IMG/VR virus record: IMGVR_UViG_3300034050_000363
Location: 1 to 22,039 of that record
Reading direction: 5' to 3' (one strand)
Length of the DNA: 22,039 nucleotides
Source: a virus
The notes under the pieces were generated by a model. That model did not search any database, was not told where the DNA came from, and worked only from the letters and a program-made list of their open reading frames with translations. Below, one piece after another: positions 4,802 through 20,719 of the stretch; position 1 is the first letter of the stretch, and every line of letters begins with the position of its first letter. A program made the position numbers and the translations under genes.

Positions 4802-5842
4802 CTACAAAGAATTGATTAAGTCAAGGTAAGAGTCTTTAAGATTTTCTGAAGAAAAGTTATTATATCCAATGTCGAATGCCTCTTGTTTATCATCAGATAG
4901 GTTATCTTGTGAAAAGTATTTATCAACTACCTTGGCCAGAGACTTTGGATCAGCCTCATATAATTTTATACCGATTCTTGCCATAAAATCTTTAACAAAG
5001 CTTGCATCTGACAACCATTTACCAGGAAGAATGATGTTATTTGGAGATATATCTGTCATAAAAACAGGTATACCACTCATAAGAGCTTCATTCATGGGCA
5101 AGCAAAGACCAGCGTACCTTCTGGGGAGGATCATGGCATCATATCCAGAATACATATCTTCACGATTAATCTCATTACCAACCAAAACAGCAATCCTCTT
5201 GTCTTCAGACTCTATCTTTAAATCTGTCTGGCTCTTTATTACCAATTCATATTCAGAATTAGAATGCTTTAACATGTCAATGACACTATTTGTACCATTT
5301 CTGTCATATATAGCAGCCTTTCCTCCTATATGAAGCAGCTTATTTGTTCTTATTGAGTTTACTTCTTTATTCCTCTTAAATGTTTGTGAGTCTGTTGGGG
5401 GCGGTAGGTATTTAACCATACATCTACCCGAAAATTTTTCTTCTACTTCTTCAAATCTCCATAGACTAGGAGCCAACAAGACATCTGGGAGCATTAAGGT
5501 TTCATTAGACATGTAATCTAAGAATTCAAAGTTATATTGAAGAATTGTTTTTATTCTTTTCTTTTTTGCCAAGGCAACGAATTGTTTATTATAAAATGTT
5601 TCACAGCTAAGAACAACACTCAAGCCATCAAAAAACTTTAACAACACCCTGCTATCTGGAAAACCTCTGCTGACAGTTATGTTTCTTCCTTCATACCAGT
5701 CATAATGCTGAACGTTCTTATTATGAAATGTGGATGAATCAATGATAAGGATCTTTTCTGGATTAAGCATTTTTACTAATTCATGGGTTTGATTGCCCAG
5801 ACCAGTATCATCTGCTCTTACAACTATCCCTAGCTTTTTCAT
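4802..5842 (-). CDS. GT-B fold glycosyltransferase (GT4-like)
   Basis: This 346-aa protein begins KKLGIVVRADDTGLGNQTHE, an N-terminal Rossmann start with the Gly loop typical of GT-B enzymes. The C-terminal domain carries LLHIGGKA (169-176) and ILPRRYAGLCLPMNEALMSG (238-257), where Glu252 is in the position of the nucleotide-binding Glu of the E-x7 motif of GT4 enzymes. It probably transfers a sugar from a nucleotide donor; donor and acceptor are unknown. It is the last gene of a four-gene cassette, coupled by TAATG to the GT-A gene. The product may decorate virion proteins or host envelope glycans. Confidence 0.78.
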   Translation of the reverse strand: MKKLGIVVRADDTGLGNQTHELVKMLNPEKILIIDSSTFHNKNVQHYDWYEGRNITVSRGFPDSRVLLKFFDGLSVVLSCETFYNKQFVALAKKKRIKTILQYNFEFLDYMSNETLMLPDVLLAPSLWRFEEVEEKFSGRCMVKYLPPPTDSQTFKRNKEVNSIRTNKLLHIGGKAAIYDRNGTNSVIDMLKHSNSEYELVIKSQTDLKIESEDKRIAVLVGNEINREDMYSGYDAMILPRRYAGLCLPMNEALMSGIPVFMTDISPNNIILPGKWLSDASFVKDFMARIGIKLYEADPKSLAKVVDKYFSQDNLSDDKQEAFDIGYNNFSSENLKDSYLDLINSL

Positions 5843-6531
5843 TACAATCCGTACCTATTCTTTAACTCGTCAATGCTTACTTCTTCCCAATAAGAAAGCG
5901 GTAAAGATGGATCATTAAATGGATAAAGATATTCTCCCCATCCACTTCTAGTTCTTTCTCCACCCCATTTTTCTTTAAAGTAATCATGAACTGCATCAAT
6001 TCTTATATCACATCCATCTTTAGATGCTCCTCCGTCAACCTGACACACTGCATCAATCTCTATGTTTCCGTACTCATTAATTTTTTCTAGTCCACATCTA
6101 TGATCCCAATCACAATCTTCGAAGTATCCTGGATAAAAGTTTTCATCAAAATAACCAATCTTATCAACAAGCTTCTTGTTTACTGCATTACAATGCCAAA
6201 CATGAGTTGACCTAAACATTAAGCCCTCATACCCCTTTAGCATTTCCCCTATCTTCTTAAAGCCGTTAGGGAAAAACATAGAACTTGATACCACAAAAGT
6301 CCACTCATGGTTTCTTCTTAGTCCAATGTTCCATGCGCGAGGGACTCCTATGTTTTCATCTTGATACGAAACCTCTAATCCAAGAGACTCAAACTCTTTA
6401 CATTCTTGAGTTCCAGTATTATCTATTAGTAATACGCGATCATAATCTTTTATTGAATCAATACATTTGCGAGTTCTTTTATTTACCTTGTATACGGGAA
6501 TACAGATTAAGTAATCAGTATCTAGAGGCAT
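5842..6531 (-). CDS. GT-A fold glycosyltransferase (GT2-like)
   Basis: The 229-aa protein starts YLICIPVYKVNKRTRKCIDSI and has LLIDNTG (34-40), ENIGVPRAWNIGL (59-71) and GYFDENFYPGYFEDCDW (126-142). These are the nucleotide-binding, mid-domain and acceptor-side ED motifs of GT2 enzymes. The usual D-x-D position reads VVSSSM, so metal binding may be altered. The start overlaps the FkbM gene by 17 nt and the stop overlaps the GT-B gene. It probably adds a second sugar in the same pathway; donor unknown. Confidence 0.78.
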   Translation of the reverse strand: MPLDTDYLICIPVYKVNKRTRKCIDSIKDYDRVLLIDNTGTQECKEFESLGLEVSYQDENIGVPRAWNIGLRRNHEWTFVVSSSMFFPNGFKKIGEMLKGYEGLMFRSTHVWHCNAVNKKLVDKIGYFDENFYPGYFEDCDWDHRCGLEKINEYGNIEIDAVCQVDGGASKDGCDIRIDAVHDYFKEKWGGERTRSGWGEYLYPFNDPSLPLSYWEEVSIDELKNRYGL

Positions 6532-7213
6532 AAATATACCCGCCTCTTTCAGGGCTTCCTAAAATTTCAATTCCAAATTGTTTTGCAAGTTTTTCTATCA
6601 TCATTCCAAATCTTCCATCAGATGATTTATCAAATTCAAGAACCAATTTTTTTATTTTAGATAAAACTTCTGACGGAGTATTGATGATGAGATCAAATTC
6701 AGCGCCTTCAATATCTATTTTCATAACGTCTACTTCTCTTATATCATAAAGAAGAAATAATCTTTCCATTGTTATTGCAGAAACAATACTTTTTTCTTCA
6801 TCTTCTAAGTTTAATATATTGCTATTCCCACCCTTGTTGCTTATTGATACTACTTTTTCTTCATGCCAAATAGCATTATTAACAATTGTTATATTTTGTG
6901 CAAAATTATTAATTATGTTTTCTTTTAATAATGCAAGATTGTTTGGTTCTGGTTCAATAGCAAAGACTTTTATCTTATTATCATCTTTTCTATTTTTATT
7001 AAAATTACCTACAAATAAGCTTACTGATCCAATATTTGCTCCAATGTCAACAAATATTTTGTCTCCATTAAAATCTCCATCATGTATTCTGTAAACATTT
7101 TCTTCCCAAGTTTCATTAATAACTTTATGATCAAGGTCGTGCTGATAACTTGGATCATCTTGATAATCTCTAACTAAAAAATTATAATTAGAGTGATTAA
7201 TTATAGAAGTCAT
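6515..7213 (-). CDS. FkbM-family SAM-dependent methyltransferase
   Basis: The start is ATG 7213, which overlaps the upstream TGA (ATGA). The 232-aa product has the SAM motif FVDIGANIGSVSLF (54-67), the acidic motif VFAIEPEP (83-90), and MKIDIEGAEFD (164-174), the signature of FkbM methyltransferases. These usually O-methylate a sugar hydroxyl, for example on polysaccharides or glycosylated products. Placed between three glycosyltransferases, it probably caps or modifies the glycan they make. Methylated surface sugars can hide a glycan from recognition, but that role is inferred. Confidence 0.87.
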   Translation of the reverse strand: MTSIINHSNYNFLVRDYQDDPSYQHDLDHKVINETWEENVYRIHDGDFNGDKIFVDIGANIGSVSLFVGNFNKNRKDDNKIKVFAIEPEPNNLALLKENIINNFAQNITIVNNAIWHEEKVVSISNKGGNSNILNLEDEEKSIVSAITMERLFLLYDIREVDVMKIDIEGAEFDLIINTPSEVLSKIKKLVLEFDKSSDGRFGMMIEKLAKQFGIEILGSPERGGYIYASRY

Positions 7214-8154
7214 ATTCCTAATTCCTTTAGTATTTGTTCCCACCTATTTTTATAGGTGTACTTTTCTTTTACTAGATTGTGACCAGAAACTCTAATCTTT
7301 TCTCTTTCCTCGTCATGCTCTAAATAATAATCTATCAACTCTTTTAATTGTTTAAAGTTCTTGTATTCATAAAAAACTAAATGCTCTTTATCTGTAAACT
7401 CTTTTTCCATACCAGAGATATATGGATGAATGATAAATCCACCTCTACCTAGAGTTTCATAAACCCTGTCAGACCAATAGTCTGGGTAGGAGAAGTTCGG
7501 GCAAAGAGTATCTCCTACAACAATCTTTGTACTTGCATACAAGTGGTTAAGATTTTTCCCTCTAATAGTTTTAATTCCATCATTACCCCAATGCTCAAAC
7601 CTTTTATTATAAGTAGATTGAAGCCAGTCAATCAATTGAGATCTATATTTCCATTCTGGGTGATATCTTTTGCTACCGACAAAGACTACCTCATGACTTA
7701 AAGTTTTTGTTGGCTTGTAGGTTGCCTCTTTATCAAAAACTCCAGCGGGTATGTAGTGACCTTTAACGTTTGTTTTCTTGTTAAACCAATCAGCCATTTT
7801 TGAATCTACTGTAAAGAAGTGTCCTATCTCTTTATATACTGGATCAGAAGATAGATCCTTTTGTCTTTTTAATCCAAACCATAAATCAAGGTGGTAGGTC
7901 ATGGTTGGTATTTTTTCATTCTTTAATTGCTTCAAGACATTAGACATGGTTAATCTGCCTGGAGTTTTCCATCCATGGGTATGTACCCAAATAAACAAGT
8001 CTGACTTTCTAGCAGTAGCGAGTATTTCTTCACTCTTTGCTTCAGTTTCTTGTAATTTAATAACCTTGTGCCCCATAGACTGAAGGGTTTTTACATGATG
8101 ACTCTCAGTAGTGTAATCTACTCTAAAGTTACCCAAAAAAACTATATTTGCCAT
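7210..8154 (-). CDS. CgeB-like glycosyltransferase (GT-B, group 1)
   Basis: The 314-aa protein starts ANIVFLGNFRVDYTTESHHV with a GT-B N-terminal beta strand and His pair. It continues with VVFVGSKRYHPE (157-168) and ends with DYWSDRVYETLGRGGFIIHP (225-244), the C-terminal pattern of CgeB-like transferases (Glyco_trans_1_2 type). It is the first gene of the cassette, preceded by an extended -10 promoter, and couples to FkbM by ATGA. It probably initiates or extends the glycan; donor and acceptor are unknown. Confidence 0.8.
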   Translation of the reverse strand: MANIVFLGNFRVDYTTESHHVKTLQSMGHKVIKLQETEAKSEEILATARKSDLFIWVHTHGWKTPGRLTMSNVLKQLKNEKIPTMTYHLDLWFGLKRQKDLSSDPVYKEIGHFFTVDSKMADWFNKKTNVKGHYIPAGVFDKEATYKPTKTLSHEVVFVGSKRYHPEWKYRSQLIDWLQSTYNKRFEHWGNDGIKTIRGKNLNHLYASTKIVVGDTLCPNFSYPDYWSDRVYETLGRGGFIIHPYISGMEKEFTDKEHLVFYEYKNFKQLKELIDYYLEHDEEREKIRVSGHNLVKEKYTYKNRWEQILKELGI

Positions 8155-8685: not shown

Positions 8686-9063
8686 TTAGGGTATCAAAAT
8701 GACACGGACAGAATCGAATTCATTGGTAAAAATATTGGTGGAAACCGTGGCTGATCCTCCAGCAATTGCACTGCTGTATGTTTTCACAATATTGTCAGAG
8801 GCATCAATAAATTCCAGAGTCGCAGTCTTACATTCACTGTCAATTCCCGTGATGGTGCCACTTTCAACCTTCACACCTTTGGCACTAGATTTGCCGTAGG
8901 TATAGGTCGTATCCACCCCATCACTATCACAGGCTTTCGCTGTCGCTTGTCCTACAACTGGGAATAGTGGTGCAGATACGCTAATTGTGCCGAGTGCATA
9001 CGCACCCCCAGCAACGCCCATAGCTGCGACTAATAAGGCTGCTGTGACGAATATCCGCTTCAT
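8686..9063 (-). CDS. Secreted protein, actinobacterial type (125 aa), higher GC than surroundings
   Basis: The N-terminus is a clear Sec signal peptide (KRIF, then hydrophobic ALLVAAMGVAGGAYA, cleavage near residue 23). The mature part is Thr/Ser/Val-rich and beta-like, with two cysteines (45 and 78) that may form a disulfide. No LPxTG-like sorting motif is seen. The ATG overlaps the sortase TGA (ATGA), so the two are co-translated. GC is roughly 50 percent against about 35 percent nearby, suggesting recent acquisition, perhaps from the host. It could be the partner or substrate of the sortase or a surface adhesin subunit. Confidence 0.75.
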   Translation of the reverse strand: MKRIFVTAALLVAAMGVAGGAYALGTISVSAPLFPVVGQATAKACDSDGVDTTYTYGKSSAKGVKVESGTITGIDSECKTATLEFIDASDNIVKTYSSAIAGGSATVSTNIFTNEFDSVRVILIP

Positions 9064-10301
9064 CGGGTATCACCAACAGAAATAGCTACATTTTTAGATG
9101 TATCTAGATTGTAGTGTGTCCATGGGTATCCTGTTAATGGCTCAGCAGTAACAATAATATTTTTTTGATATCCTCCGTTATTTTTATCATATGGACCAGC
9201 ACAACTTATTAAAGTTATCTTTGTTTTTCCATTTGAATAAAATATATCTTTAGATATTTTAGGTAATTTATTTTTTTCTATCATTTTTACATCCTTAACT
9301 TCATATAATGAGGTATAATCTAAATATTCAAGAACAATGGAGTCTTTAATCTTTAGGTCTTCTAGAGAATAAAAAGCCCCAGGCTCAGGATCAGTGCCAT
9401 CACGATGCCCTACGATGACAGTTGACCCCCCCTTTGAGCCTGGGGTTGCTCCATGTTTATACCATCCCACGGTTGATATGTTCTCTGGGACTTCTATTGA
9501 ATTGTCTTTTTTTATCCCCACGGGAGTCAGTGGAGCTTCTACCATCAAAGAAGGAATCTTTACCATTCCCCCTCCCCCTGCATCAATTACTGTAGGAATT
9601 GGCATGGGTTTTTTCGTTGGCTTTGTCGTGGGCACTGGAGTTGGAGTGCTTATTGGTGTTGGCTCTTGAGTTGTAATTGGATCTGGAACTACTTCTTCCT
9701 CTACAGGAGTAGCTGGTGGTGCGATTACAACTGGTGGCAAGCCGTAATCTGGTGTGTGTGGTGCAGGAGGATCTGGTGTCAGTGTAGGAGTAGGCGTTGG
9801 TGTAGGTGTAGGTGTAGGAGTAGGCGTAGGCGTTGGTGTTGGTGTAGGCGTTGGAGTAGGCGTTGGTGTTGGTGTAGGTGTTGGTGTAGGAGTAGGCGTT
9901 GGTGTAGGTGTTGGTGTAGGTGTAGGCGTTGGTGTAGGTGTTGGTGTAGGTGTAGGTGTAGGAGTAGGAGTAGGCTCTACAACATTACAGCCATTCTCCC
10001 AGATCTTCTTTCCTTCATCATTCCAATTTCTTCCTTCAAAAGAAGATGATTTATAGCTAAATGGAGGAATAATATCTCTTTCATGATCCCCATGTCCATT
10101 AAGATATTTATTCTTTTCATTGTTTATACTTGATGCATCAACTGTATTTTCTGTATAAGGATTTTTTTCAGATGCTGTTGCATGACAAATTTTTACTTTA
10201 TCAGACTTTGCCTGAGCATTTGATGTTATAAAAATTGCCGTTACTGCAATAACAACCAAGATTAACCAAAATACAAAACCTAACACGATATTCTTCCTCA
10301 T
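9060..10301 (-). CDS. Membrane-anchored sortase with Pro-Thr stalk (class E/F-like)
   Basis: The 413-aa protein has an N-terminal signal anchor (residues 5-28), then a small extracellular domain with KICHATASEKNPYTENTVD and GHGDHERDIIPPF (36-81), a type found in secreted actinobacterial proteins. Next come about 32 Thr-Pro repeats (110 to about 174), a second Pro/Thr linker, and a sortase domain from about 246. The sortase has VIVGHRDG (His299) and TLISCAGPYD (Cys367), the two main catalytic residues. The third residue, usually Arg, is not obvious: the place I would expect it reads GGYQKNIIV. AAGGAG stands before the ATG. Sortases join proteins to the cell wall; a phage-encoded one on a long stalk is unusual. 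Confidence 0.86.
   Translation of the reverse strand: MRKNIVLGFVFWLILVVIAVTAIFITSNAQAKSDKVKICHATASEKNPYTENTVDASSINNEKNKYLNGHGDHERDIIPPFSYKSSSFEGRNWNDEGKKIWENGCNVVEPTPTPTPTPTPTPTPTPTPTPTPTPTPTPTPTPTPTPTPTPTPTPTPTPTPTPTPTPTPTPTPTLTPDPPAPHTPDYGLPPVVIAPPATPVEEEVVPDPITTQEPTPISTPTPVPTTKPTKKPMPIPTVIDAGGGGMVKIPSLMVEAPLTPVGIKKDNSIEVPENISTVGWYKHGATPGSKGGSTVIVGHRDGTDPEPGAFYSLEDLKIKDSIVLEYLDYTSLYEVKDVKMIEKNKLPKISKDIFYSNGKTKITLISCAGPYDKNNGGYQKNIIVTAEPLTGYPWTHYNLDTSKNVAISVGDTR
9778..9973 (-). repeat. Hexanucleotide-type repeat coding (Thr-Pro)n
   Basis: About 195 bp of near-perfect 6-bp units (on the plus strand GGTGTA, GGAGTA, GGCGTT and variants) encode the Thr-Pro stalk. Third-base variation is spread along the tract and suggests old plus recent unit duplication. 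Tracts like this change length by slippage. The long plus-strand Gly-Val frame over it is only a shadow. Confidence 0.85.
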
Positions 10302-10394
10302 TTACAAGCATCTCCTTTTTTGGGAGAGAAGGGGGGCGCTCTTGATAAATAGAATATCATATTTTTATGAGGGTTTTTATTGTTTTAAGGTAAA

Positions 10395-10416
10395 TGACCA
10401 TACATTGACCATATAT
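10395..10416. repeat. 11-bp tandem repeat upstream of the sortase
   Basis: TGACCATACAT is followed directly by TGACCATATAT, one mismatch in 11. It lies 95-115 bp before the sortase ATG and overlaps a possible -10 box (TATGGT at 10397-10402 on the minus strand). It could be an operator. Confidence 0.5.
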
Positions 10417-10444: not shown

Positions 10445-10460
10445 TGTGATTTACATCACT
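10445..10460. promoter_or_regulatory. CRP/GlxR-like binding site upstream of the sortase
   Basis: TGTGATTTACATCACT matches the actinobacterial GlxR/CRP consensus TGTGA-NNTANN-TCACA at all but the last base and is a near-perfect palindrome. It lies between tRNA-Thr and the sortase, about 150 bp before the sortase ATG. If the weak promoter TTAGGA (10420-10425), 17-nt spacer, TATGGT (10397-10402) is used, the site is centred near -62, the classic class I activator position. Host CRP-type control of the sortase is inferred. Confidence 0.55.
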
Positions 10461-10482
10461 TTTTAGTCTTTTTATATTTAAG

Positions 10483-10554
10483 AGCCCTCTATCCGATTTG
10501 AACGGATGACATTTGCTTTACAAGAGCAACGCTCTACCACTGAGCTAAGAGGGC
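10483..10554 (-). tRNA. tRNA-Thr (TGT)
   Basis: The acceptor GCCCTCT/AGAGGGC, D-arm GCTCAGTGGTAGAGC, anticodon loop CTTGTAA with anticodon TGT and T-arm GTTCAAATC fold normally. CCA is not encoded. It reads Thr ACA and lies 7 nt past the stop of the DUF7455 gene, so it is probably cotranscribed with it. Confidence 0.93.
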
Positions 10555-10823: not shown

Positions 10824-10853
10824 ATCATACTACCCTCAACTAATATTTGTCAA
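10824..10853 (-). promoter_or_regulatory. Promoter of the DUF7455/tRNA-Thr unit
   Basis: On the minus strand TTGACA (10848-10853), 18-nt spacer, TATGAT (10824-10829). The start near 10817 leaves a leader of about 19 nt carrying AAAGGAG. Its -35 region overlaps that of the divergent plus-strand promoter. Confidence 0.7.
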
Positions 10854-12930: not shown

Positions 12931-13887
12931 CTAAAATATTATTTCTTGAGTTTTTACAGAACTGTTTACTTTTTTTTCCATTTCGTTTTGATAAAAATCG
13001 GCAAAATTTATTCCAATTAATTCTTGATACTCCCAAAACTTATCTAGATCTTCTATGCCATATATTCCTTGCTCAGTTCCAAGAAGTACCTTTCTTTGTA
13101 CCCGCTTGGAATTCATTTCCATCTCTATCCATTTTATTGGTCTCTTTGTATCTTCAATTTGATCCCAAACTTTTGGACTACGACTTCTTTTGTAATAGTG
13201 CCACAGAAGCATTTTGTTTGGTGCATAAATCTTCCATCCTCTTGTATAAGATCTAATCGCTATGCATAATTCTTCTCCCATAAAGGATATTCTTTCATCA
13301 GATGGGATTTCTTTTACAAATATTCCAGGAGCAAATAAGTATCCAGCAAGAACAGTGTGAGATAGGTGTGGCTTAGACAAGTCTTCAATCTCCTGTCTAG
13401 TTGCTGACCATGCTCCGTGATCTCTATTATGTACCTTTGACCAAGATGGTCTGTCCCATAACTCTTCATGATTTTTAGGATAAAATATCTTACCATCAGT
13501 ATGAACTTCGTAAGGAGCAGGGAACTGACTAAGGATAACTTTTTCTGTCTTTGCCATAGTGCATGAAGTAAAGTACATTCCAATCATTTCAGAATCCCAG
13601 TTTTTGCCTGCTCTCATGTGAGAATCTACTTGTAAAAAGTAATCTTCTCCTCTATACAAATCCATTGCAATCTTTCTTGCATAACCTGCTCCGCGAGCTT
13701 CTCTAGAATCCATCTTTACATAAGAAAGATTCTTTATAAAAGATAAATCTGGATGTTTATTTTTTAAGTCTTGAGAAACAATACAAAAGTATAGTGAGTC
13801 TGGATTCTTTGCATTGTCTATAAAGCTCCTAATGGTGGGAACTAGCTCAGTATCCCTATAAGAAACAATACTAACCATTATTGTCAT
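12931..13887 (-). CDS. GT60-like N-acetylglucosaminyltransferase
   Basis: The 318-aa protein starts MVSIVSYRDTELVPTIRSFI and then shows IVSQD (36-40), REARGAGYAR (62-71), FLQVDSHMRAGKNWD (84-98), FMGEELCIAIRSYTRGWKIY (202-221) and LWHYYKRS (228-235). This order matches the GlcNAc family (Pfam PF11397, CAZy GT60), which includes eukaryotic Skp1 GlcNAc-transferases and bacterial homologues. VDSH stands at the metal-binding D-x-D site. It would add GlcNAc to a Ser/Thr/Hyp or a glycan; the acceptor is unknown. ATGA links it to the 87-aa gene. Confidence 0.8.
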   Translation of the reverse strand: MTIMVSIVSYRDTELVPTIRSFIDNAKNPDSLYFCIVSQDLKNKHPDLSFIKNLSYVKMDSREARGAGYARKIAMDLYRGEDYFLQVDSHMRAGKNWDSEMIGMYFTSCTMAKTEKVILSQFPAPYEVHTDGKIFYPKNHEELWDRPSWSKVHNRDHGAWSATRQEIEDLSKPHLSHTVLAGYLFAPGIFVKEIPSDERISFMGEELCIAIRSYTRGWKIYAPNKMLLWHYYKRSRSPKVWDQIEDTKRPIKWIEMEMNSKRVQRKVLLGTEQGIYGIEDLDKFWEYQELIGINFADFYQNEMEKKVNSSVKTQEIIF

Positions 13888-14147
13888 CCTAGTTTTTGAC
13901 CTCCAGGAACATCATATACAGGATCAAGTGTTACTGATACCCCATACGATTCAATAATCTTCTTTACCTTCTGTAGGTAAGCAATACATTTTAACCTCTC
14001 TGTGTCGCTCATATGCCGCCAATGACTTTCATAGAACCTAAGTCCTATGTATGGTGGAGGCATGTCATATTCTACAACGTCCATTGCAAAGTTAGAGGGA
14101 ACCTTTACTGTATGAACATCTCTCTTCATCTTAGGGGTATAGATCAT
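13884..14147 (-). CDS. Phage hypothetical protein (87 aa)
   Basis: The sequence includes VVEYDMPPPYIGLRFYESHW and DTERLKCIAYLQKVKKIIES, a short beta segment followed by a long helix. No motif or membrane segment is seen. The ATG overlaps the WhiB stop (ATGA) and the stop overlaps the GT60-like start (ATGA). It is real by packing; no function assigned. Confidence 0.65.
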   Translation of the reverse strand: MIYTPKMKRDVHTVKVPSNFAMDVVEYDMPPPYIGLRFYESHWRHMSDTERLKCIAYLQKVKKIIESYGVSVTLDPVYDVPGGQKLG

Positions 14148-14428
14148 TCTTTATCCATCGTTAGAGACTTCCATGTATCAAACCATGATTGCTTTGTTTT
14201 GTGTTGATTGAACTCTCTGTCGATGTTTCCCTCTTTTAAATAAACACCACCCCAGACTCCCCATTCTTTATTTGAGACTCCAACAGCGAAGCATTCTTTG
14301 TTTACAGGGCACTGTCTACAAAAGTTATCTATTCTTGCAGCAATTGCTTGATCTTCTTCATACTTATCGAAGAATATGTTTGTGTCCATCCCCAGACATT
14401 TAGCCTGATCTTTCCATTTATAGTTCAT
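14144..14428 (-). CDS. WhiB-family Fe-S transcriptional regulator
   Basis: The 94-aa product has the four invariant cysteines: Cys11, then FCRQCPVNKEC giving Cys37, Cys40 and Cys46 (C-x2-C-x5-C), and the GVWGG turn (57-61). These bind a 4Fe-4S cluster. After GVWGG the basic DNA-contact segment is short and weakly basic (KEGNIDREFNQHKTK). WhiB proteins are nearly confined to Actinobacteria and their phages and act with the host primary sigma factor; phage versions can repress host whiB2 and cause superinfection exclusion, as in mycobacteriophage TM4. It overlaps the 73-aa gene by 11 nt. Confidence 0.93.
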   Translation of the reverse strand: MNYKWKDQAKCLGMDTNIFFDKYEEDQAIAARIDNFCRQCPVNKECFAVGVSNKEWGVWGGVYLKEGNIDREFNQHKTKQSWFDTWKSLTMDKE

Positions 14429-17695: not shown

Positions 17696-19480
17696 CTACA
17701 TAAATCCCATGCTGGAAAGATATTCTTTTATCTCTTCCGTTGGCTTTGGAGGAACAATAAGACTTTCTGAAGCTTCCGCAGCCCTTTCTTTTGTAACAGA
17801 CTTCCAGGAATGAATAGATATTTCTTGATTCAGATTGCGAGGTGTATGAGCTATTGCATTATATACTGCCCCTGTAACGGCATCTGAGAGATCCTTAGAC
17901 CCTTTTCGAGGATGGTCAACCTTCTTATCAGAAACAATTCTTAGCTGACTCATTTCGTCCAAAAGGATTTGAATGTGTGGCATCATAACTCTATCTTCAT
18001 AGACAAGCATGGCTAGATCTTCGTAGTGCTTCTTTCCTACAGACAAAGTATCTGCTTTAATACCTACAGACTTTAATTCTTGCTGGATATCAAATGATTG
18101 CCACCTGTCAAAGGTAACTAAACCAATATCAAATCCTTGTCTACGAAAATCAACAATCCAGTTTTTTACTTCTGATAGATTAACAGGTCCTTCTTTTTGT
18201 GGTTCCCACCAAACAATAGCATCAACAATAACTAGGGGGTGAACCTGAGTGTAATCATTAAAAGTTCTTACCTCTACCCACTTATCCACATGAGATATTG
18301 CTATTGCACATTTGTCGTGCTTTTGAGCAAGGTCAGCATGAAGAAAATATCGAACACCTTCTTTAGGTTGCCATACTGGTTCTATCCTCTTAAAAGAGTC
18401 AATTGGATTGTGTAAGCACATAGACTTCTCTAGCTTTTCTTTTTGCTTAAAGAATGCATCTGACATATAGGATGGCATACAAGCAAATCTTTGCATTGCA
18501 TCTGCATAGTCATCTACAAATGCTCTTTCAAAGTCTTCTATCTTTCTCGTTGGATTAGCTTCCCATGTCGGTCTCTTGATTGCAAAGACCCCAGAAGTTT
18601 TATAAGATTTAATATGATCTTCTTCCCACTCAATAGTGAATTGGTTTTCTGCAAGATCTTCTGGCAAGTCTGGATTAATAATAAAGGTGTGACTCCTTAT
18701 GACAACATCTTTTTCTGCAACAACTGTGTCATATCTTTTTGAAATAAAGTCACCTGGGTATCGGGGAAAAGACAACAAGATTACTTTACCAAAATCTGGA
18801 AATCGTGAATCTACTGAGGCACGGAAGGCTTTGTATATGGCATCACCAGTTTTTGCATTTTCATTTCCAGATGCTGAGTCTTGGGCGAACCCCGATATCT
18901 CATCAAGGATTGCAAGTATCAGGTTTAGTCCTTCGTGACTCTCTCTTTCTGAATGTCCAGAGTAAACAGTAATAGCTTTATCAAACTCAATGCTGTCTAC
19001 CTTTGCGTCATATTTTCCAGCAAACCACGGGGAGCGAGCAATCTTATTCTTAAATCCTTTAAAGAAAACATTCTTTGCTTGCTGGGCATTTACGGCAACG
19101 TTAATAATATCAATAGCATCTCCAGGTGGCTTGCCAAAGTATTGTGCTGGATTTTTTAGACACATTAGCTTATATACAAGATAGGCACACCCAATAGTAG
19201 ATGTATGATCTTTACCACTACCCTTGCCTAGTTGCAGCAACACCTCTGACTTTGTATATTTTTTATAGTGGGCCTTGCCTTCTGCTTCCCCCATAAACCT
19301 AATAAGATCTTCTTCTTTATAGATTTGGCTCATAGCCTCTACAAGATCACGCTGGATCTGTGATAGCTCTGGTTGTTCTAAGTACAGAGGAGCATGAAGA
19401 AAAGTATCTAGATCAACTGGGATTTCTTCAAATGGCTGAGCATCAAGGGCTGAGATAAAATCTGAAAAATCAAGACTCAT
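17696..19480 (-). CDS. terL: Terminase large subunit (TerL)
   Basis: The 594-aa protein has the Walker A motif QLGKGSGKDHTS (84-94), Walker B ILAILDEIS (188-196, Asp193 and catalytic Glu194), and an RNase H-like nuclease domain with FLHADLAQKHD (Asp383), LVTFDRWQS (Asp458) and KGSKDLSDAVTGA (Asp530, Asp533). It powers packaging of DNA into the prohead and cuts the concatemer. Length is normal for the family. It overlaps TerS by 11 nt. The G-x-G-S-G-K-D loop with Asp after Lys is typical of this TerL branch. Confidence 0.95.
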   Translation of the reverse strand: MSLDFSDFISALDAQPFEEIPVDLDTFLHAPLYLEQPELSQIQRDLVEAMSQIYKEEDLIRFMGEAEGKAHYKKYTKSEVLLQLGKGSGKDHTSTIGCAYLVYKLMCLKNPAQYFGKPPGDAIDIINVAVNAQQAKNVFFKGFKNKIARSPWFAGKYDAKVDSIEFDKAITVYSGHSERESHEGLNLILAILDEISGFAQDSASGNENAKTGDAIYKAFRASVDSRFPDFGKVILLSFPRYPGDFISKRYDTVVAEKDVVIRSHTFIINPDLPEDLAENQFTIEWEEDHIKSYKTSGVFAIKRPTWEANPTRKIEDFERAFVDDYADAMQRFACMPSYMSDAFFKQKEKLEKSMCLHNPIDSFKRIEPVWQPKEGVRYFLHADLAQKHDKCAIAISHVDKWVEVRTFNDYTQVHPLVIVDAIVWWEPQKEGPVNLSEVKNWIVDFRRQGFDIGLVTFDRWQSFDIQQELKSVGIKADTLSVGKKHYEDLAMLVYEDRVMMPHIQILLDEMSQLRIVSDKKVDHPRKGSKDLSDAVTGAVYNAIAHTPRNLNQEISIHSWKSVTKERAAEASESLIVPPKPTEEIKEYLSSMGFM

Positions 19481-20000
19481 AAATTACAACAGCCTCTCCA
19501 GATGCACCAGAAATTTCGGTAAGCCTCATCATTACTTCATTACGAATATTTGGGTATTTTGATGCAATGTCTTTTAGAATATCAACAATCAACTCTTGTT
19601 TTCTTTCTTGCTCTAGCAATTGATCTGCTAATTCTTTATTTTCTAAAAGTCCAGCCTTCTGTAGCATGTCTATTCTTTTTCCCTCAATATCAAGAATAAG
19701 TTTGATTGCCGTTGTCTTTGCAGAAAGATTTGCAGTAGTGTTAGCGTCATCGATTACTTCGTATGCTTGTTTAATTAAGTGATTGTAATGTTGATCTGCT
19801 CCAGCAAGGGCTTCCCTAGCCCTGATTCTTACTGCTTCATTGTTTGCCACCATGTTTCTCCACTCATTCAAGAGGGAGAGAACTCTGTTGCGAGGGATGT
19901 TTAATGTTTTAGAAATTGCAGAGGCATCATTACCTTTGATGTACTCTGAGGCTACCGTATTAACTTCTTCTATATGTAGCACTAATTCTTGGCTATCCAT
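19470..20000 (-). CDS. terS: Terminase small subunit-like protein (TerS)
   Basis: The 176-aa protein starts with a short helical region and a helix-turn-helix-like segment (DASAISKTLNIPRNRVLSLL, 25-44), then a long helical region (about 60-165) suited to oligomer formation. AAGGAGC precedes the ATG. Adjacency to TerL, size and a N-terminal DNA-binding region agree with TerS, which marks phage DNA for packaging. The assignment is by context and architecture, since TerS proteins diverge widely. Confidence 0.75.
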   Translation of the reverse strand: MDSQELVLHIEEVNTVASEYIKGNDASAISKTLNIPRNRVLSLLNEWRNMVANNEAVRIRAREALAGADQHYNHLIKQAYEVIDDANTTANLSAKTTAIKLILDIEGKRIDMLQKAGLLENKELADQLLEQERKQELIVDILKDIASKYPNIRNEVMMRLTEISGASGEAVVIYES

Positions 20001-20087: not shown

Positions 20088-20627
20088 CTACATGCAATCA
20101 GAATTAAATTGATACCAGTGTTTCTTTCCAGCACTGTGTCTCCACGCTGTAAAGAAAGATCTATCTTGATAATATCTATTCCATTCATGAATTGGCTTAT
20201 CTCTTAACTTTTTAATTTCCTTGGATAAACCATCATTGCTTTTCTTTGATTCTTCTAACATCATCCAAACTAAAGAGTCACGCCAAAAATTATCTAAAAA
20301 TTGGTACGCGCCTCTCGCTGATGATGTTTTGTTTGCTGATCTGTAATTGAAACGTGACTCTCCGTGCATAATACATTCTCTTGTATTTTCCCACTTTGAG
20401 TCATACCATTCACCTTTATAAAGTGATTTTTCGTATCCCATCATGTCTTTAGCATCTTTTGATTTTGCAATTCGATACTCATGACTAGATTTTACGACTT
20501 GATTTGTCGCAGTCGGTGCAGACTTAGCATACACCTGATTGGGGGCAGGCTCAGCGATTGCTGGTAAAGCTGTACTAATAACAATCACCATTCCTAAAAT
20601 GCCTCCTAGCAGTTTCGTTTTCGTCAT
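20088..20627 (-). CDS. Secreted Rpf/transglycosylase-like muralytic protein
   Basis: The 179-aa protein has a Sec signal peptide (about 1-25, cleavage near AIA-EP), a Pro/Ser/Lys-rich linker, and a lysozyme-fold catalytic segment CIMHGESRFNY (85-95, Glu90 as the likely catalytic acid) with SSARGAYQFLDNFW (102-115), the pattern of resuscitation-promoting factor and lytic transglycosylase domains. Cys85 and Cys178 may form a disulfide. It ends RHSAGKKHWYQFNSDCM. It would cut glycan strands outside the membrane, before or during lysis. CAGGAGGAAG precedes the ATG. A CRP/GlxR-like site lies about 60 bp before the predicted transcript start. Confidence 0.8.
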   Translation of the reverse strand: MTKTKLLGGILGMVIVISTALPAIAEPAPNQVYAKSAPTATNQVVKSSHEYRIAKSKDAKDMMGYEKSLYKGEWYDSKWENTRECIMHGESRFNYRSANKTSSARGAYQFLDNFWRDSLVWMMLEESKKSNDGLSKEIKKLRDKPIHEWNRYYQDRSFFTAWRHSAGKKHWYQFNSDCM

Positions 20628-20660
20628 TTCTTCCTCCTGACGGCAACAACATCTATCTAG

Positions 20661-20688
20661 ACTATCATATAAAAGATAGCTGAGTCAA
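20661..20688 (-). promoter_or_regulatory. Promoter of the Rpf-like gene
   Basis: On the minus strand TTGACT (20683-20688), 16-nt spacer, GATAGT (20661-20666), or TAGTCT with an 18-nt spacer. The start near 20652-20654 leaves a leader of about 25 nt with AGGAGG. Confidence 0.5.
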
Positions 20689-20703: not shown

Positions 20704-20719
20704 TGTGACATTAGTCACT
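20704..20719. promoter_or_regulatory. CRP/GlxR-like binding site upstream of the Rpf-like gene
   Basis: TGTGACATTAGTCACT fits TGTGA-N6-TCACA at all but the last base, and the core GTGAC-ATTA-GTCAC is a perfect palindrome. The central TA of the GlxR form is only partly matched. It overlaps the HNH stop codon and is centred about 58-60 bp before the predicted start, near the class I activator position. CRP/GlxR control of rpf genes is known in Mycobacterium and Corynebacterium; here it is inferred. Confidence 0.5.

Follow-up and report, generated by a model that had tools for sequence, protein, structure and literature searches.

The palindrome TGTGA-N6-TCACA is probably a CRP/GlxR operator used by a family of actinophages, in which the host's regulator would activate the promoter of an operon encoding an exported protein and the terminase. 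We analyzed it in a 22,039-base phage contig from IMG/VR, here called the window, of which only about 11% is non-coding. We assign it to an actinophage because it carries a WhiB regulator gene (14144-14428) and because its terminase is 54% identical to that of Streptomyces phages. Its other genes include several glycosyltransferases and an FkbM methyltransferase (4802-8154 and 12931-13887). It had originally been predicted, from a box upstream of a sortase gene, that this phage puts genes under the control of the host's CRP/GlxR. Comparison with related phages argues for such control at the late-operon promoter and, in relatives, at the promoter of a gene encoding a protein of about 50 amino acids. 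The sortase gene itself has one unconserved site, whose geometry relative to the conserved -10 element is poor.

The late operon lies on the minus strand of the window. It is preceded by the conserved CRP-type box AGTGACTAATGTCACA (20704-20719), which has one half-site mismatch. A -35 element, TTGACT (20683-20688), begins 15 nt after the box, and an extended -10, TGA-TAGTCT (20659-20667), follows 39 nt after it, placing the box centre at about -59.5. Next comes a leader with a conserved GTTGCCG-type stretch and the ribosome-binding site AGGAGG (20628-20650). The operon then encodes an exported protein that is conserved in relatives (20088-20627), a phrog_9507 protein that may be the small terminase (19470-20000) and, immediately after it, the large terminase subunit (17696-19480). 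The exported protein has a weak PHROG match to transglycosylase, which we retain only as a weak label; its predicted fold has a mean pLDDT of 58 and yielded no structural match.

The same layout is found in related phages. We scanned 80 loci, nearly all of which had been found by their terminase, and detected 9 perfect boxes where 1.4 were expected, and 14 GlxR-type sites with at most one mismatch where 4.3 were expected. Most of these boxes precede the start of the terminase gene by about 1.23 kb, i.e., at the place occupied by 20704-20719 in the window, and the order of elements is the box, a -35, an extended -10 and then the leader GTTGCCGCCGCAAGGAGG. The leader is itself strikingly conserved 5' of the exported gene: the sequence GTTGCCGCCGCAAGGAGGAA, of which a variant is present at 20628-20650 of the window, occurs in 56 viral contigs.

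To rank the motif without bias, we compared all 11,264 dyads (5-mers separated by gaps of 0-10). In 26 non-redundant regions upstream of the exported gene, TGTGA-N6-TCACA ranks first (18 of 26, 7 perfect). We also used the leader alone as bait in the viral contigs, obtaining 56 stretches, so that these loci were not picked by the box. Among the 30 non-redundant promoters selected in this way, TGTGA-N6-TCACA is again first, with 24 within one mismatch, 12 of them perfect, against 10 for the runner-up, although a few of the 24 matches (gap 74) fall in the upstream HNH coding region. Nearly all of the information is held by the half-sites while the central six bases vary, a pattern that arises partly by construction, as the matrix sites were chosen as boxes.

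Spacing relative to the promoter is also preferred. In a wider set of 41 non-redundant late promoters, a box lies at most 55 nt from the -10 in 28, and 13 have no such box. The distance from the box to the extended -10 in these 28 is 38-42 nt in 20 cases, 46 nt in 3, 33 nt in 2 and 50-51 nt, which is one turn further than 38-42 nt, in the remaining 3. If the -10 is taken to start at -12, a distance of 40 nt corresponds to a box centre of -60.5, and the 20 promoters with a distance of 38-42 nt have the class I layout, in which the site is upstream of the -35, in phase and centred at about -61.5. CRP boxes are paired with promoters 21 times, as opposed to 1, 0 and 4 times for control motifs of the same composition, and the distance from box to -35 in paired promoters peaks at 10 and 17 nt. 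We looked for weaker -35 elements in the box-bearing promoters and did not see them. In isolated Streptomyces and Rhodococcus relatives, the gene order is different and there is no clear enrichment of the box.

Palindromes of this kind might instead be RNA hairpins acting as terminators. Stems of 5 bp can form at both sites in the window, and T-runs follow the sortase-side site at 10445 on the plus strand. However, neither site folds better than shuffled sequence (plus-strand z values of -0.2 and -0.03, and a minus-strand value of -1.4), and we rejected this reading on that basis. In addition, no gene on the plus strand would be terminated at 10445, and the late box is kept whether the upstream gene is an HNH gene or another, with a preferred spacing to the promoter that follows it. 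A hairpin function is thus very improbable, and we continue to treat the palindromes as putative binding sites for a protein.

A second conserved promoter supports the association. In long relatives, a gene of about 50 codons, which lies some 8.7 kb past the box of the late operon and is absent from the window, also carries a box (L088:11345-11427, L093:1547, L096:1580, L101:5567, L102:1610 and others). Its protein sequence, MKTITNLFSRMF...EIDAIFSRHA, has no Pfam match. TGTGA-N6-TCACA again ranks first of all dyads, being found in 9 of 14 non-redundant copies of this promoter. In most copies the box is 33 nt from a TGNTATAAT-type -10, and this gap is found even in phages whose terminases are only about 71% identical. 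The box centre is then at about -53.5, which is not a canonical position for E. coli CRP.

Other boxes occur in individual relatives. A one-mismatch box lies within a non-coding stretch common to four genomes (G001:5190, G004:28517, G005:92200 and G006:70517, corresponding to L091, L095, L086 and L100), possibly a third conserved place; this stretch also holds TCTGACA/TTGTCAA-like sequence. At L086:5556 (G005:93555), the perfect box TGTGAGACAGATCACA is followed, after 10 nt, by TTGACA and, after a further 18 nt, by the extended -10 TGATAGGGT; the late-operon promoter of this phage has no box.

Given a tentative operator, we considered which protein might read it. We searched 18 phage records, including four of 101-106 kb, for an HTH_Crp or cNMP-binding domain and found none. 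A relative whose terminase is 87% identical, and which has the same box, sits in a metagenome-assembled genome (MAG) titled Candidatus Nanopelagicales, which also codes for a CRP containing the helix GASRETVNKAL. A cNMP-binding protein is present in 56 of 59 genomes of the MAG's family, which is the likely host family, although this assignment comes from a single MAG contig, for which mis-binning is possible. Across these genomes there are 85 perfect boxes, compared with 31 matches for a reversed control.

It is conceivable that the reader of the boxes is a regulator from another protein family, encoded by the phages themselves, that recognizes TGTGA-N6-TCACA. These phages do encode other regulators, e.g., the WhiB protein of the window, and not every phage protein has been classified. 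However, the motif equals the CRP/GlxR consensus, the phage records searched contained no CRP-family domain, and WhiB proteins are not known to recognize palindromes of this kind. We therefore regard a phage-encoded reader as rather improbable. Since the dyad is top-ranked at two conserved promoters, has a preferred spacing and is accompanied by no phage CRP in the records searched, activation by the host's CRP/GlxR is the most likely explanation.

The box from which control of the sortase gene had been predicted, TGTGATTTACATCACT (10445-10460, not assigned to a strand; AGTGATGTAAATCACA on the minus strand), lies between a tRNA-Thr and the sortase gene. The original description of this site was confirmed. 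The site fits the consensus save for its last base, which is its one mismatch to TGTGANNTANNTCACA, and it is the sole site in the window with at most one mismatch to that sequence. A similar density of palindromes in shuffled sequence would have weighed against it; dinucleotide shuffles give only 0.067 such sites per window, with at least one site in 6.5% of shuffles, and shuffling the 180-bp intergenic stretch alone gives a match in 2 of 5000 cases. The site also stands before genes for exported proteins, as had been stated. One gene encodes an exported protein that has a sortase domain (PF04203, 72.7 bits) and a long TP repeat (9060-10301, minus strand). The other overlaps the sortase stop and encodes a small protein whose N-terminus carries a signal-like segment (8686-9063, minus strand). 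The TP repeat (9800-9990) comprises roughly 60 residues and is likely a wall-spanning spacer.

The suggested scan with a position weight matrix likewise gave few strong matches. With a matrix trained on related phages, the window being excluded, the two best matches are both upstream of exported-protein genes: 20704-20719 ranks first (16.2 bits) and 10445-10460 second (14.5 bits). Looser matches are another matter, as the window has 15 sites with three mismatches and 15.2 are expected by chance. Because these counts are equal, only near-perfect sites are informative, and we dropped three-mismatch sites as evidence.

The promoter context of this box is less favorable. The original prediction had centred it near -62 from a possible weak promoter, and this arithmetic is right: relative to the candidate -10 TATGGT (10397-10402, minus strand), the centre is at about -62.5. 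However, this hexamer is TACGGA in the two related sortase loci that were found (L002 and L003). The element that is conserved there is an extended -10 of the sortase leader, TGATATTCT (10351-10359, minus strand), which aligns with TGCTAATAT in both relatives, and relative to which the box centre is at about -108. A scan with the sortase leader found no loci beyond these two. The leader and this -10 are retained in both, and the tRNA directly upstream differs from that of the window. In neither is there a box before the sortase gene, the best match having three mismatches, and a search of viral contigs with the exact sortase box and its flank returned no match.

The chances are about evenly balanced that the 10445 box is a fortuitous match, that the only conserved CRP-type promoter in the window is the one at 20704, and that the sortase gene is transcribed either from the tRNA/DUF7455 unit upstream of it or solely from the extended -10. 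The absence of the box from two relatives that retain the leader and the extended -10 is consistent with this explanation, as is the chance expectation of 0.158 matrix matches per window as strong as the 10445 site. Moreover, a strong promoter-like site, TTGACA-18-TATGAT (11 of 12 positions; 10824-10853, minus strand), lies upstream of the DUF7455 gene. This site could also transcribe the DUF7455 gene, the sortase gene and the tRNA-Thr(tgt) (10482-10554, minus strand) that immediately precedes the box when the sortase strand is read. Outside the conserved promoters, one-mismatch sites are little more frequent than those of a reversed control; 18 records contain 41 and 23, respectively, counts that include the conserved promoters. 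Against a chance origin, the site is the second-best matrix match in the window, is intergenic, precedes exported genes and has a motif that is in use by the phage family.

We consider the sortase box to be a good motif that lacks conservation. Control of the sortase gene by it is unproven, because the box is absent from both relatives and is separated by about 108 bp from the sole conserved promoter element. It is possibly a lineage-specific extra site, although we lean mildly against its being functional. If it is functional, it might activate a promoter about 62 bp away or modulate read-through from the tRNA unit. A broader proposal is that a widespread family of aquatic actinophages makes its terminase/late operon, together with one or more other promoters, dependent on the cAMP-CRP state of the host, which would tie late gene expression to host nutrition, and that the sortase gene joined this regulon in the window phage; this combination falls just short of an even chance.

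The sortase leader has features of its own. In the window (10302-10335, minus strand) and in L002 and L003 (about 5960-6000), the segments TCTCC...GGAGA are kept and can pair over the ribosome-binding site, and the same leader contains a conserved GAGCGCCCCCCTTCTC stretch. Together, these suggest possible translation control. In L002 (5930-5955), and identically in L003, a perfect inverted repeat, AACAATAT-GCTA-ATATTGTT, overlies the extended -10 of the sortase leader. Its fold has a z of -4.8 in L002, and the repeat is degraded in the window.

Under the mechanism that we favor, the host's CRP/GlxR, probably with cAMP, would bind the boxes and aid RNA polymerase at promoters of the phage, chiefly the one that drives the exported-protein/terminase operon. 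Late gene expression would then follow the cAMP state of the host. The same protein might instead act as a repressor or road-block that delays the late genes, and cAMP-CRP does repress the pir promoter of coliphage T1 (PMC6737242). In Mycobacterium tuberculosis, however, CRP has a similar consensus and its sites cluster at -60 to -40 of start sites; upstream sites tend to activate, and those close to the start are more often repressive (PMC4117774). The phage boxes lie upstream of the -35 at a preferred spacing, where activation would be expected, and we consider repression unlikely. If activation by the host regulator is correct, a family of uncultured actinophages senses the carbon and energy state of its host through the host's own global regulator, which would act at the promoter that drives the packaging genes, and phage production would be linked to host nutrition.

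Use of host CRP by a phage is already known from coliphage T1, which is the closest precedent found; full-text searches of the available literature found no report of host CRP at a terminase/late promoter for actinophages, nor of such use across a family of them. The dyad itself is the same as in the actinobacterial operators of M. tuberculosis CRP (Rv3676) and Corynebacterium glutamicum GlxR, the difference being that the phage copies are predicted sites on phage genomes, before phage late genes. As with M. tuberculosis CRP sites, the phage boxes are upstream, within or bordering the zone from -60 to -40 (PMC4117774). Most late-operon copies also resemble class I CRP promoters of the E. coli lac type (centre at -61.5) in being centred at about -60 with a sigma-70-type promoter. 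However, the phage promoters have an extended -10, TGNTAnnCT, and some copies are at -53.5, -66 or -71. Adoption of a host global regulator by a phage has a parallel in phage GIL01 and host LexA (PMC4551915), although both the regulator and the signal are different. In coliphage T1, as proposed here, a phage promoter is read by host CRP; there, CRP represses a regulator of lysogeny and lysis (PMC6737242), whereas the actinophage layout suggests activation of the terminase operon.
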